A DNA stretch of 64,000 bases from assembly GCF_009754905.2 (NCBI RefSeq), contig NZ_CP066775.1, positions 620,001 through 684,000 on the forward strand, read 5' to 3'. Of the stretch, positions 34,757-40,289 are shown in pieces. The DNA is from Mucilaginibacter ginkgonis (GTDB lineage: Bacteria; Bacteroidota; Bacteroidia; Sphingobacteriales; Sphingobacteriaceae). Both the position numbers and the translations under genes were made by a program. The notes below the pieces were generated by a model. It saw only the letters and a list, made by a program, of their open reading frames with translations, was not told the origin of the DNA and did no database searches. Within the stretch, counting starts at the first letter, position 1, and every line of letters starts with the position of its first letter.

Positions 34757-35605
34757 TTAATTTTTATTTGAATAGTATGTTAGCAAATTATTTATGGGTT
34801 CTCTTAAAATGCTCTCTACCTGCAAACCTGCTGCAGTGGTAACCTCTTTTAATTCGGTTTGAAACAATGCCGCGACAGACCCGGTAAAGTGAACATTGGC
34901 ACGCGGATGTTTCTCTTTAAGCGGTACCAGGTAAGTGTCTGTCAATAATGTAAAACCTTTGGTTATGGTTTGCCTAATGAACGGATCGTTATAGTTTTCG
35001 CTGTAAAAATCTGTAAAAGAACTTAAGAACAAGGCCGGCTGGCGCGAGCGGTAAACCTTCTCGAGCATAGTTTTCCGGTCGGCATCATATCGGTGCTGAA
35101 AGCTTTTTTTCAGATGTTCCGGCAACGTCTCGTTCATGTATGCTTTTATCAACTGACGGCCCAGCCAATTGGCAGAGCCTTCATCGGCCAGTACATAACC
35201 TAAACCATAATTGTTTACTGCAAGTTTCCTGCCATCGTACCACGCCGCGTTGCTGCCGCTGCCGCAAATGCAAACAATGCCTTCCTGGCTCTTACAACAG
35301 GCTATTGCCGCCGCCAGCATGTCATGCCCAACGGTAATTTTGGCAAACTTAAAAAAAGCCGACATAGCCTTGCTGATCAGTTCTTTAAGTTCGGGCGTTG
35401 AGGCACCCGCGCTAAAAAAATAAACACGCTTTACTTCTTCGGCGTGGTGGATAAGGTTTATGTTTTTATTAAGCAGCTGTTGGATATGTTTCTCATCATT
35501 AAACTGCGGATTAATGCTGCTGGTTTTAAATGATGCAATAGTTTTCCCTTTGTTTGATAATCGCCAATCGGCAATATGCGAACCGCTGTAAACTACTGCT
35601 ATCAT
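34757..35605 (-). CDS. BadF/BadG-type kinase homologue with degenerate phosphate-1 loop
   Basis: The 282-residue protein belongs to the BadF/BadG/BcrA/BcrD or N-acetylglucosamine-kinase-like family of the ASKHA fold. CGSGSNAAWYDG (phosphate 2) and DEGSANWLG are kept, as is the C-terminal EPINNLLTYY helix. The N-terminal phosphate-1 loop, normally an Asp then GGSTKT (as in the paralogue at 39429), reads YSGSHIADW. The essential Asp and the Lys-Thr are missing, so kinase activity is doubtful. It lies between pfkA (4 nt upstream) and gap (6 nt downstream). It could be a sugar-binding regulator of this operon or an altered enzyme. Confidence 0.85.
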   Translation of the reverse strand: MIAVVYSGSHIADWRLSNKGKTIASFKTSSINPQFNDEKHIQQLLNKNINLIHHAEEVKRVYFFSAGASTPELKELISKAMSAFFKFAKITVGHDMLAAAIACCKSQEGIVCICGSGSNAAWYDGRKLAVNNYGLGYVLADEGSANWLGRQLIKAYMNETLPEHLKKSFQHRYDADRKTMLEKVYRSRQPALFLSSFTDFYSENYNDPFIRQTITKGFTLLTDTYLVPLKEKHPRANVHFTGSVAALFQTELKEVTTAAGLQVESILREPINNLLTYYSNKN

Positions 35606-36719: not shown

Positions 36720-37415
36720 TTGGACGAACTACTACCTAAGTTTGAGTCGGTTTTTTCTATCGACTGTGTGATATTCGGTTTCGATGCCGGCGAGTTAAAA
36801 GTACTGCTCATAGAACGTAACGAAGAGCCTTTTAAAGACTGGTTTGCCCTGCCGGGCTACATAGTTGGCCAGCAGGAAAGCATTGACGACGCTGCCGAGC
36901 GTATCCTTAACGAGCTTACAGGTTTGCGCGGCCTGCACATGGAGCAATTCCACACCTTCGGCGAAGTTAACCGCCACCCGCAAGGCCGTGTGGTAACAGT
37001 TGCCTACTACGCGCTCATTCGTATCAACGGACAAAAGGAGCTGCGCCCGGTGACCCAGTACGCGCGTAAAGCATTCTGGCACCCGGTTAACGAGTTGCCT
37101 AAACTGGCATTTGACCATAGCGAGATCTTCAACACAGGTTTCAATAAAATTCGCCGTAGGTTAAGCTATCAGCCTATAGCGTTTGAACTGCTACCGGAAA
37201 AGTTTACACTTACACAGCTGCAAATGCTTTATGAAGCCATCCTGAACAAAAAATTGGACAAGCGCAACTTCCGCAAAAAGATGCTGAGCTATGGTTTCCT
37301 GAAAGAGCTTGACGAAAAACAACGCGGTGTATCATACCGTGCCGCCAAGCTTTACAAATTCGACAAGCGTAAATACACCAAGATTTTTCAAAACGAACTG
37401 ACTGTAGAAGGGTAA
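36720..37415 (+). CDS. NrtR/AraR-like transcriptional regulator (Nudix plus winged helix)
   Basis: The 231-residue protein has a Nudix fold (about 10-150) followed by a C-terminal winged-helix domain (about 160-231), with KLDKRNFRKKMLSYGFLKEL as its core. The Nudix box is degenerate: where hydrolases have the REUxEExGU glutamates, this has AERILNELTGL, so it probably senses a ligand rather than hydrolysing one. In Bacteroidota such proteins control sugar (AraR, XylR) or NAD genes. No in-frame ATG gives a full domain; the start is TTG at 36720. It is divergent from pfkA, which suggests control of the glycolytic operon. Confidence 0.85.
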   Translation: MDELLPKFESVFSIDCVIFGFDAGELKVLLIERNEEPFKDWFALPGYIVGQQESIDDAAERILNELTGLRGLHMEQFHTFGEVNRHPQGRVVTVAYYALIRINGQKELRPVTQYARKAFWHPVNELPKLAFDHSEIFNTGFNKIRRRLSYQPIAFELLPEKFTLTQLQMLYEAILNKKLDKRNFRKKMLSYGFLKELDEKQRGVSYRAAKLYKFDKRKYTKIFQNELTVEG

Positions 37416-37433
37416 AAAGTTACCAACGAAAGT

Positions 37434-37541
37434 TGTCATTCAGAGCGCAGCGAAGAATCTCTTTGGAGCCTCACCCCAACCCCTCTCCAGAAGGAGAGGG
37501 GCTAAAAGTATTTTATCATTCAGAGCCTGGCGAAGAATCTT
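37434..37541. repeat. Dispersed GTCATTCAGAG-type repeats and CCCCTCTCC hairpin
   Basis: Two copies of a short element (GTCATTCAGAGCGCAGCGAA then GAATCT, 37434-37459; a variant with CCTGGCGAAGAATCT at 37515-37541) flank a hairpin (CCCCTCTCC and GGAGAGGGG around AGAA). Similar CTCTCC/GGAGAGGGG stretches occur at 47894-48002. No gene is visible. Confidence 0.7.
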
Positions 37542-37589
37542 ATCGATTTTTGCAATAGGAGTGGAGAAAATTGCATTGCCTTAGATTAC

Positions 37590-37681
37590 TGGGCGTTACC
37601 CTCATTCGTCGGGTCGGGCTATCCACTACAAGTCCTCATTTCGGTACGCTCACTCCGGGCTTTTCGTTTCTATCCTTAACG
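37590..37681. repeat. GGGCGTTACCCTC-type repeat
   Basis: The stretch reads GGGCGTTACCCTC, then GGGTCGGGCTATCCACTACA and GGTACGCTCACTCCGGGC. It shares the start GGGCGTTnCCCTC and the GCTATCC block with the element at 25016-25110. The region 37416-38083 (668 bp) between the regulator and the channel gene holds only repeats and a possible short promoter, with no supported gene. Confidence 0.55.
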
Positions 37682-37756
37682 CATTTGTCTGAACCTGACT
37701 TTTTGCAATTTAAGAATTTTCAGAATCATAGATTCAAAGCATATCGTATTTGGGTT

Positions 37757-37939
37757 TTTAACGCCAGCGGGCAGCTTCGGGTGAAAGCACGAGCCGCTAC
37801 TGAGGGCTTGTGTGATGAGGTCCATGCGAGTGCTTTGCAGGATGGGCCCTGTGCGAAAGAAGCCTTTCGCTGGCTTGGCCTTTTTGGACACTTTTGTGGC
37901 TAAGACAAAAGTGTCGAGCCTTAGCGGCGAATGAGCGTA
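37757..37939 (-). repeat. Dispersed ~180-nt intergenic element, copy B (inverted)
   Basis: The reverse complement aligns with copy A at 33487-33664 along its whole length. Its hairpin stem reads ACACTTTTGT with ACAAAAGTGT, where copy A has TTACTTTGT with ACAAAGTAA. The loop is similar (CTTAGCC versus CTTGGCA). Both arms have changed together, which points to selection on the structure. Confidence 0.8.
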
Positions 37940-38083
37940 AAAGATAGTCTCCTTTGAGATACCAATAATCCCCATAATTGTTGGAACAGCATGCCTTGAA
38001 TGGCATCGGCCTCCATAATACTAGTATCATCACCCCAGAACATTTCCCGCTTTCATATGTATTTACCGCAATCCCAACGGTCT

Positions 38084-39046
38084 ATGAACAAACTACTTGC
38101 AAAAATATTAATCACGTTTACCGCGCTTTTTGTTACCGGTATCACCTACGCTCAAAAGCCTAAGCCAGATACCGTAACCGCCGGCTTGTACATTACCAGC
38201 ATTCACGATATAAACTTTAAGGACAAGGAATACACCGCCGATATGTGGCTTTGGCTGCGATACAAAAAGAAGGAATTCGACTTTATCAAAAACCTGGAAG
38301 TGCCGCAGGCTAAAACGGTAACCAAGTCTTTTACCACGGTCGATTCATCTAACAATAAGATCTTCATCCTGATGAAACTGCAGTGTGTGATGAAGGATTC
38401 GTGGGCGATAAATAATTTCCCGTTTGACAGTCAGAAACTGCGTTTCTCCATCGAAAACTCCCAGTTTGACTCTAAGGCGATAATATTTAAGATAGATAAC
38501 CGCGGGCAGCACTTCGACCCGAGGTTCACGCTTAATGGTTGGGCCATTGACAGCATTAGCCTGACCAGCGGTATCAAAAAATATGAAACAGCCTTTGGCG
38601 ACAGTATTGTGCCGCCGCACACAGAGTACAGCAACTTCAAAGCAGTACTGAGGATACACCGCGACGCGATGGGCCTGTTCTGGAAAATGTTTTTGGGTAT
38701 GTATGTGGCGTTCCTGATCGCTTACATGTGTTTCTACATCCATGCAGATAGCATCGACTCGCGCTTTGGGCTTAGCGTTGGTGCCTTGTTTGCCGTGATA
38801 GGTAATAAATACATCATAGATAATACCTTACCGGAGAGCACAACCTTTACCCTTGTAGACACCCTGCACGGACTTACATTGCTGTTTATCCTTGCGACGA
38901 TCATTTGCAATACGTTTTCGCTAAGACTTATAAAAACCAACAAATTAAAAGAAGGCCGCCGCTTCGATTTTATTTCAGCTCAGGTGGTACTGGTAGCTTA
39001 CCTTGTACTGAATGGCTGGTTTATCTACACCGCAAGCAGGGGATAA
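38084..39046 (+). CDS. Pentameric ligand-gated ion channel (Cys-loop superfamily) homologue
   Basis: This 320-residue protein starts with ATG at 38084, at a signal peptide (residues 1-20). The extracellular part opens GLYITSIHDINFKDKEYTAD then MWLWLRYK, as in bacterial channels of the GLIC/ELIC type. It has the Pro-loop FPFDSQKLRFSIE (F112-P113-F114-D115) but no cysteine loop. Four transmembrane segments follow (about 200-221, 226-248, 258-283, 298-317), with a short TM3-TM4 link. TM2, expected to line the pore, reads RFGLSVGALFAVIGNKYIID. The ligand is unknown. The ATG at 38000 lies in unlikely sequence. It is a single gene between repeat DNA and a cluster of palindromes. Confidence 0.85.
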   Translation: MNKLLAKILITFTALFVTGITYAQKPKPDTVTAGLYITSIHDINFKDKEYTADMWLWLRYKKKEFDFIKNLEVPQAKTVTKSFTTVDSSNNKIFILMKLQCVMKDSWAINNFPFDSQKLRFSIENSQFDSKAIIFKIDNRGQHFDPRFTLNGWAIDSISLTSGIKKYETAFGDSIVPPHTEYSNFKAVLRIHRDAMGLFWKMFLGMYVAFLIAYMCFYIHADSIDSRFGLSVGALFAVIGNKYIIDNTLPESTTFTLVDTLHGLTLLFILATIICNTFSLRLIKTNKLKEGRRFDFISAQVVLVAYLVLNGWFIYTASRG

Positions 39047-39059
39047 GCATCTATGCCGC

Positions 39060-39373
39060 TGTTGGTGTTGTCACCAACAGCTCACAGCCTATTACTATTG
39101 TTGGTGACAACACCAACAATGGCGTAAAATCAACGTGTAAAATTGTTAGACGCAATTCCAGCAATGGCCCCGAAGCCTCGGCAGAACAATGACAACTTTG
39201 TGCAGTACTGCACCCAATTGTCAGCAATTTGGTGTTTCACAGCCCCACTACTGACAAAGTAGTGCTTGCAGGTAAACGCTGTAATAAATTGAAAAAGAAC
39301 AATAAGCAACATTTTGTCACATACTTAAAAGTATGGAACAGCTGTTTCACTGTTTCAGGTGAAACAGTGAAAC
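39060..39373. repeat. Cluster of perfect palindromes in a convergent gap
   Basis: (1) 39060-39079 and 39099-39118 are exact 20-nt inverted repeats, and each arm is itself a TGTTGGTG/CACCAACA hairpin. (2) 39190-39223: TGACAA and TTGTCA flank a perfect 14-nt palindrome GTGCAGTACTGCAC. (3) 39246-39264: CACTACT with AGTAGTG. (4) 39321-39334: ATACTTAAAAGTAT. (5) 39344-39373: GTTTCACTGTTTCA with its exact complement around GG. None has a T tract. The gap otherwise holds no gene. Confidence 0.9.
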
Positions 39374-39378
39374 ACCAC

Positions 39379-39406
39379 CAAAAAAGGCAGCCTGATCTGG
39401 CTGCCT
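39379..39406 (-). terminator. Terminator of the BadF-type kinase gene
   Basis: The stem AGGCAGCC with GGCTGCCT has a 6-nt loop. On the minus strand it is followed by T6. It lies 23 nt after the kinase stop. Confidence 0.85.
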
Positions 39407-39428
39407 GCAATATCTTGTTTCATGAAAT

Positions 39429-40289
39429 TTACAATTGACTTGGCGCCAATTCCAGGTGATACTTCACCAGGTTATCTATAGGTGAGCGGATAATGTTACC
39501 TACCATCATGCCGTGCGCGGTTACTACCTCTTCTAATACATTACGGAAGTTGTAACCAACAGAACCAATACAGTTAAAGCTGTATTTCTGATAATCGGGG
39601 TAGTGGGTAACCAGGTTTCTAAAGAAGTCTTCGAACGATGATTGCACCAGGTTGCGTGAGTACTCTATATTCACGTTGTTGTCGTAAACAAACTTGCTAA
39701 AGCTGGCGCAAAAACGGTTAGCCAACGGCTGAGAGTACACGCGATCGTTAACCTCGTCTGGCGTTAATTTAAATGTTTCCCAAAAGCTGTTGCGAACAGC
39801 CTCTGGCATGTAGCCGCGCAGGTAATCTATCAGTAATTTCTTACCGATAGCACAGCCGCTGCCTTCATCGCCAAGGATGTAAGCGCCTGAGTCGATGTTG
39901 TTGGTGATCTTTTTGCCATCATAGATACAAGTGTTGGTACCGGTGCCCAAAATGGCAGCAAAACCCTCGTTGTTACCCAATAAAGCACGTGCGGCGGCAA
40001 GCAGATCGTGACCTACGCTTACGCGCGAGCTGCTGAATACCTTGCGCATCGCACTTGCAACTATCTCGTTCTTCTCCGGAACGGAGCAGCCTGCGCCATA
40101 ATAATTTACTTCTGTGATCTTGCTCTTGTCGAGGTCGGTAGGCAGGCTTTCATTCAATGAGTTAATGATATATTCTTCACCAACAAAGTATGGATTGTAG
40201 CCTTCTGTGTTAAAATAAATTTTCTTCTCGTCCTCTGTAACCAAACACCAGTTGGTCTTGGTTGAGCCGCCATCAGCGATAATTATCAT
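39429..40289 (-). CDS. BadF/BadG-type sugar kinase, N-acetylglucosamine-kinase-like
   Basis: The 286-residue ASKHA-fold kinase has an intact phosphate-1 loop (IIADGGSTKTNW), phosphate 2 (ILGTGTNTCIYDGKK) and the DEGSGCAIGKKLL helix. Members phosphorylate N-acetylglucosamine, glucosamine or similar sugars with ATP. It is a paralogue of the 34757-35605 protein: the two share the layout and the blocks GHDLLAAA/GHDMLAAA and SPIDNLVKYH/EPINNLLTYY. It is a single gene with its own terminator, next to but not clearly part of the uronate cluster. Confidence 0.9.
   Translation of the reverse strand: MIIIADGGSTKTNWCLVTEDEKKIYFNTEGYNPYFVGEEYIINSLNESLPTDLDKSKITEVNYYGAGCSVPEKNEIVASAMRKVFSSSRVSVGHDLLAAARALLGNNEGFAAILGTGTNTCIYDGKKITNNIDSGAYILGDEGSGCAIGKKLLIDYLRGYMPEAVRNSFWETFKLTPDEVNDRVYSQPLANRFCASFSKFVYDNNVNIEYSRNLVQSSFEDFFRNLVTHYPDYQKYSFNCIGSVGYNFRNVLEEVVTAHGMMVGNIIRSPIDNLVKYHLELAPSQL

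Follow-up and report, generated by a model that had tools for sequence, protein, structure and literature searches.

A pentameric ligand-gated ion channel subunit of Mucilaginibacter ginkgonis with a conserved and distinctive pore lining

The reading frame and its superfamily

Does the open reading frame at 38084-39046 encode a genuine pentameric ligand-gated ion channel (pLGIC) subunit, and if so, what might open its pore and what might pass through it? The frame was analyzed in the window, the whole stretch of 64,000 nucleotides, whose numbering is used throughout. It lies on the plus strand and runs from the ATG at 38084 for 320 residues; extension upstream to the ATG at 38000 would give 348 residues. 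The features used below are the following.

38084-39046, plus strand: pLGIC subunit gene, 320 amino acids plus stop; Pfam, NCBIfam, PDB, and fold matches
38084-38155, plus strand: signal-peptide-like N terminus, residues 1-24; read directly from the sequence, poorly conserved, helix 2-18 in the model
38162-38665, plus strand: extracytoplasmic ligand-binding domain, residues 27-194; PF02931, beta strands in the model
38312-38314, plus strand: K77 in loop A, invariant (78/78); equivalent to GLIC R77 by profile, not by MAFFT
38375-38377, plus strand: K98, invariant (78/78); at the place of R105 in GLIC and of an Arg in the glycine receptor
38417-38428, plus strand: Pro-loop FPFD, residues 112-115; P, F114, and D invariant (78/78)
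38453-38455, plus strand: E124 in loop B, invariant (78/78); at the place of Glu131 in ELIC and of a Glu in the glycine receptor
38582-38629, plus strand: loop C region, residues 167-182; Y167, T169, F171, G172, and Y182 invariant
38669-38737, plus strand: M1, residues 196-218, from model and alignment; G205 in place of the kink Pro
38756-38833, plus strand: M2 from -2' to 23', residues 225-250; D-2', R0', G2', G6', F9', G13', K15', Y16', D19', P23'
38852-38935, plus strand: M3, residues 257-284, from the AlphaFold2 (AF2) model
38945-39040, plus strand: M4, residues 288-319, from the AF2 model; the least conserved helix

Two bacterial channels serve as references: GLIC, the proton-gated channel of Gloeobacter violaceus, and ELIC, the amine- and GABA-gated cation channel of Erwinia/Dickeya. 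The window protein scored 27.4 bits with PF02931 (ligand-binding domain; cut-off 26). The NCBIfam models LIC and LGIC_1 matched with E values of 5e-14 and 7e-14, both far under their own cut-offs. Searched against the PDB with phmmer, the protein matched a GLIC/GLRA1 chimera (1.4e-08) and GLIC mutants (from 9e-06), and a profile of 40 relatives matched the same chimera with an E value of 2.9e-16, GLIC with about 1e-12, and the glycine receptor with 2e-10. PF02931 matched all 40 aligned family members at E values up to 10, and PF02932 (membrane region) matched 4 of the 40, with a best E value of 0.022. A six-frame search with PF02931 found 2 of 395 genomes of the phylum; the window's own genome was not among them, even though the window protein scores above the cut-off of this model.

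Six of the seven superfamily-wide residues listed in Table 1 of PMC4795631 are kept, the exception being the M1 kink proline. They were scored in a 78-row alignment from which three short rows (L068, L069, and L076), duplicates, and the window's own copy had been removed; L062, dropped from alignment A1 for a stop codon within its translated stretch, was retained among the 78 rows. The Pro-loop pattern [F/Y]PxD is present as F112 P113 F114 D115. The beta-9 core tryptophan W153, the pre-M1 arginine R193, and the M2-M3 loop proline P250 occur in all 78 sequences and align with GLIC W160, R192, and P247. At the M1 kink, all 78 sequences have glycine (G205). Because Table 1 of PMC4795631 counts proline here in only 77% of pLGICs (glycine in 5%), we do not regard it as a defining feature. 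The disulfide-forming cysteine pair around the Pro-loop is absent, with D105 and L119 in its places as counted from the Pro-loop Asp of a glycine receptor fragment. Section 7 of PMC4795631 describes both cysteines as missing from bacterial members, and the lack is ordinary for a bacterial pLGIC.

An AF2 monomer model was built from 40 sequences and was of moderate confidence (pLDDT 82.3, pTM 0.64). It contains a beta domain followed by helices at residues 196-218, 224-248, 257-284, and 288-319. The combination of a beta-sandwich and a four-helix membrane domain was found in the model and by both Foldseek and VIA-align, the VIA match extending over residues 24-320. Foldseek returned 1106 matches with E ≤ 0.001; the 50 listed were all pLGICs, with query TM scores of 0.71-0.79. 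Among the matches listed, the Foldseek and VIA-align partners were chains of glycine and GABA-A receptors and of GLIC. The best VIA-align match listed was 6x3s_A (Z 24.1, 281 residues, rmsd 2.7), and a GLIC-GABA-A chimera gave Z 23.4 over 281 residues with an rmsd of 2.4. ELIC was not among the 50 VIA-align matches listed, which is uninformative on likeness to ELIC. The majority residue had a mean share of 0.92 in both M1 and M2, compared with 0.79 for the extracytoplasmic domain, 0.77 for M3, 0.57 for M4, and 0.32 for residues 1-24.

The original prediction of a pLGIC homologue with a signal peptide, an FPFD Pro-loop, and four membrane segments, and with no Cys-loop, was confirmed, the N terminus being signal-peptide-like; the homology is borne out by PF02931, the PDB profile, the fold matches, and relatives elsewhere. 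The gene encodes a genuine, intact pLGIC subunit, and the resemblance is not due to chance. Membership in the superfamily is unsurprising; the surprising part is the pore, which is distinctive and strongly conserved.

Distribution of the gene

The window's own genome (3.70 Mb, one contig) holds one copy, with two further matches at E values of about 0.3. Relatives in other genomes were found at 73 loci, chiefly in Mucilaginibacter and Pedobacter and also in Chitinophagaceae, Sporocytophaga, and unclassified Bacteroidota. In the same genus, 47 of 149 genomes gave a match, 42 with an orthologue of at least 68% identity and 5 with distant relatives only; the gene is therefore patchy even within the genus (42/149). 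The same family gave matches in 43 of 301 genomes, one of them through a 33% relative only, and a search with the family profile gave hits in 24 of 395 genomes of the phylum. Relatives of 25-31% identity occurred in 10 plasmid records (8 from Azospirillum and 2 from Streptomyces), and no match to the channel was found among phages.

A tree was calculated from 53 rows, made up of 27 of the 78 family rows and 26 others, and was rooted at the midpoint. The family rows formed one group of 42 with those of Azospirillum and Streptomyces (support 100/98 among the 53 rows). We claim no relation to animal receptors because long branches meet in the tree and its root is a midpoint root. The channel belongs to an uncharacterised bacterial branch that reaches plasmids of Azospirillum and Streptomyces.

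The pore lining and ion selectivity

M2 was numbered with R227 as 0'; the numbering follows from an alignment with GLIC, ELIC, and the glycine receptor that has no gaps as far as the M2-M3 proline. M2 is among the most conserved parts of the protein, with 13 of 26 positions invariant. Among the 78 sequences, position -2' (D225) is Asp in 75 and Glu in 3, 0' (R227) is Arg in 75, Lys in 2, and Ser in 1, and 2' is Gly in 75 and Ser in 3. Gly at 6', Phe at 9', Gly at 13', Lys at 15' (K242), and Tyr at 16' are invariant, and 19' (D246) is again Asp in 75 and Glu in 3. At 9', Leu is found in 75% of pLGICs and Phe in 13% (PMC4795631, section 7 with Table 1).

Section 8 of PMC3119659 describes a cation-selective pore as three hydrophobic layers, followed by two polar layers and one negative layer. 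We assigned 9', 13', and 16' to the hydrophobic layers, 2' and 6' to the polar layers, and -2' to the negative layer. The negative ring at the intracellular end is present, with Asp or Glu at residue 225 in 78/78 sequences and at the position of GLIC E222. The two polar rings of the intracellular half are missing and glycine stands in their place, while the hydrophobic positions are Phe, Gly, and Tyr in 78/78 sequences, giving two aromatic layers with glycine in the middle. Acidic rings at both -2' and 19' in all 78 sequences, together with the always acidic residue 222, would favor cations, and the pore sequence points to a cation preference, although R0' is shared with anion channels. The original prediction had called selectivity hard to predict from an M2 with few charged residues, quoting residues 233-246. 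The unusual character of M2 was confirmed, and the loss of the polar rings agrees with that caution; however, D225 and D246 place acidic residues at both pore ends in 78/78 sequences, which allows a guess in favor of cations.

A glycine-rich M2 plugged by aromatic residues could also form no ion pathway, in which case the protein would be a non-conducting receptor that signals by other means. Both polar rings and the M1 kink proline have been lost, as this explanation would have it, but the high conservation of M2, with the acidic end rings and the 0' charge kept, is what would be expected of a working pore, and neither a signalling domain nor a partner gene was found. We consider a non-conducting receptor improbable. 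Similarly little credence is given to a bolder proposal, in which the glycine-backbone inner half, the double aromatic gate (F9' and Y16'), and the M1 glycine make up a pore type undescribed in the literature examined; such a pore may open wide enough for solutes bigger than simple ions, for instance amines or organic cations, on exposure to a periplasmic amino acid, which would make the channel a ligand-gated solute port with the fold of the neurotransmitter receptors.

The pore pattern extends into the wider branch. Counted by eye, 28 of 38 aligned rows (all except L120-L129) have Phe at 9' and Gly at 2'. Position 6' is Gly in 25 of these 28, the exceptions being Azospirillum sp. B510 with Ala and two Streptomyces rows with Ala and Thr. 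The remaining 10 rows, L120-L129, have Leu at 9'. Two genomes from the phylum-level set, G599 and G564, each carry two distinct branch members (L116/L117 and L130/L131), with M2 ASQY and M2 GNKY.

A candidate ligand pocket

E124 and K98 are both invariant (78/78). E124 lies opposite a Glu in ELIC and the glycine receptor and opposite Ile131 in GLIC, and K98 is paired with R105 of GLIC and an Arg of the glycine receptor. According to section 7 of PMC3119659, ELIC Glu131 is near the amine of bound bromopropylamine, and all principal-side mutants investigated there, Glu131 included, gave no response to cysteamine. For GLIC, PMC7336382 gives Arg77, Glu181, and Arg105 of the neighbouring subunit as carboxylate contacts. 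The HMMER profile alignment pairs K77 with GLIC R77, while the MAFFT alignment pairs it with GLIC R85 and sets GLIC R77 on E72. The MAFFT alignment gives no family counterpart for GLIC E181, nor does the family retain the vestibule residue Y102. Loop C is longer in the family than in GLIC. Compared with the other 43 representatives, the window protein alone lacks one residue in this loop, after D173.

Among the contact positions, 3 of 5 are invariant, a weak enrichment over the whole domain, where 33 of 168 positions are (p 0.05). With K77 included, whose placement depends on the alignment, the count is 4 of 6 (p 0.014). The retention of the loop-B Glu together with a basic residue suggests an amino-acid-like agonist, which we treat strictly as a working hypothesis because the pocket enrichment is weak.

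The same residues bear on whether the channel could be proton-gated and ligand-independent, as GLIC is. Low or high periplasmic pH would then open it, with conserved acidic residues as proton sensors. Of the natural bacterial channels with a solved structure, GLIC is the nearest in sequence, sTeLIC is opened by high pH, and residues 222, 225, 246, and 251 are acidic in every one of the 78 sequences. However, the loop-B Glu of ligand-gated members is invariant here where GLIC has Ile131, and loop C exceeds that of GLIC in length. Proton gating is accordingly held to be unlikely, though less so than a non-conducting receptor.

Gene neighbourhood

Open reading frames around the channel gene were clustered by blastp at 74 loci (the 73 relatives and the window), 58 of the 73 having more than 5 kb on both sides. 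No conserved partner gene was found across the 74 loci. Two clusters, present at 65 and 35 loci, consisted only of minus-strand frames whose representatives overlap the channel gene, and were read as shadow ORFs. The largest other cluster (21/74 loci, single-linkage) is represented by a two-component hybrid kinase and was judged to be background; its members lie less than 200 bp from the channel in 5 of 9 rows listed, in mixed orientation. Because no neighbour is conserved, those in the window were not read as indicating function, and a uronate ligand, considered from the nearby GAPDH, PFK, KDPG-aldolase, and MFS genes, was dropped for the same reason. The earlier statement that no ligand-producing gene is adjacent agrees with these results, as no obvious one lies nearby.

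Genes with a BadF/BadG-like ATPase fold flank the channel at 34757-35605 (282 aa) and 39429-40289 (286 aa), near the PFK, GAPDH, and KDPG aldolase genes. Both matches fall just below the Pfam cut-off; the products are possibly sugar kinases. Rfam gave no match in 37400-39440, and a promoter and terminator scan gave no signal above chance. Just past the channel stop, the palindrome GTTGGTG-NNNN-CACCAAC occurs twice (39060-39079 and 39099-39118). Its 18-base form has 10 sites in the genome, compared with 0 for the reversed control, and its appearance is that of a dispersed REP-like or hairpin element with convergent genes on its two sides. A perfect 15-bp inverted repeat with a 2-base gap, TGTTTCACTGTTTCA / TGAAACAGTGAAACA, lies at 39343-39374 and is single in the window. 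The intergenic stretch 37430-37545, read by eye, holds two similar copies of TCATTCAGAGC...GCGAAGAATC and a CCCCTCTCC/GGAGAGGGG hairpin, and looks like dispersed repeats.

The chemotaxis question

Bacterial pLGICs were proposed as chemotactic receptors in the 2004 inventory (PMC549065). The complete genome of the window's organism gave 0 MCPsignal and 0 CheW matches, in searches whose controls were positive in 7 of 14 genomes each. The lack of both domains rules out a chemotaxis receptor of the MCP pathway in this organism. With neither present, the channel must have another output, the simplest being a change in membrane potential or cation entry.

A plasmid of Azospirillum sp. B510 (L132, 3779-8861) carries a tight same-strand run of a channel relative, a CheW-domain protein (470 aa), a four-helix-bundle MCP, and a mechanosensitive channel. 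This distant relative has the GNKY M2 and lies 19 bp upstream of the CheW-domain gene, which the MCP gene follows; the run is a possible channel-coupled chemotaxis operon. It is the observation in favor of a chemotaxis receptor acting through ion flux. Against such a role stand the MCPsignal- and CheW-free genome of the window, the distribution of MCPsignal within the genus (3 of 42 orthologue-bearing genomes compared with 5 of 107 others), and the neighbours of the A. brasilense relative, which are T6SS, UPF0114, and SIMPL genes and do not fit chemotaxis. We regard this role as very improbable, the least probable of the explanations weighed here.

Proposed mechanism and significance

The gene product is probably an inner-membrane, homopentameric, cation-conducting pLGIC with its agonist pocket facing the periplasm. 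This reading draws on the superfamily sequence and fold, the single copy, the acidic rings at both pore ends, the pocket residues, and the lack of a partner gene. Five subunits would assemble around M2, and a small ligand would bind between them, its amine held by E124 and the loop-C aromatics and a probable carboxylate placed near K98 and perhaps K77. Binding would tilt M2 and open a gate at F9' and Y16', and cations would pass the Asp rings to depolarise the membrane or to bring in a cation that acts as a signal. In the lower half of the pore, glycine backbone would form the lining rather than Ser/Thr side chains, so that this half may be wide or may rely on water and backbone carbonyls. In the window's organism, chemotaxis of the MCP type is not the output.

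The original prediction had stated that few Bacteroidota members have been studied. No functional study of a Bacteroidota pLGIC was found in the open-licence literature, and no pairing of Mucilaginibacter with a ligand-gated ion channel was found there either; members from Cytophaga hutchinsonii had, however, been listed in 2004 (PMC549065). None of the model bacterial channels described in the literature examined (GLIC, ELIC, sTeLIC, and DeCLIC) comes from Bacteroidota, and there are few tested answers so far as to what pLGICs do for their bacterial hosts. The genes of this branch are small and single-copy, and they encode a strongly conserved yet atypical pore and a pocket of amino-acid-like appearance. 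Two questions thereby become testable: whether a pLGIC can conduct without the polar rings of 2' and 6', and which purpose pLGICs serve in bacteria that lack chemotaxis receptors. The branch is a sound new test case and not a new type of system.

Comparison with known systems

GLIC resembles the window protein in its two domains without extras, the Pro-loop, the acidic -2' residue, the basic residue at R105, and the profile E value of about 1e-12. In contrast, its M2 has T2', S6', I9', A13', and I16' where the family has G, G, F, G, and Y; it has the M1 proline in place of glycine, Ile131 in place of the loop-B Glu, and a shorter loop C. ELIC shares the loop-B Glu (Glu131, equivalent to E124), an aromatic ring at 16' (Phe in ELIC, Tyr in the family), and R0'. 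It differs in Q2', T6', and L9' (G, G, and F in the family), in its M1 proline, and in Ser at -2', with a Glu at -1' according to the ELIC fragment.

Glycine and GABA-A receptors gave the best structural matches among those listed (Z 23-24), and the glycine receptor fragment shares the loop-B Glu, an Arg in the place of K98, R0', and G2', with T6' and L9' in its M2. Unlike the animal Cys-loop receptors, the window protein has no Cys pair, its M3-M4 loop is of 5 to 6 residues and not long, and it has Asp where they have Pro at -2'.

The inventory of 2004 includes three pLGICs from C. hutchinsonii. In that paper (PMC549065), other listed pLGICs have operon partners or carry a PBP, Cache, or MCP-N domain, whereas the window gene has none of these. 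One C. hutchinsonii form, compared by description only, has the same simple two-domain architecture and, by this analogy, may be an early-seen relative of the channel described here.
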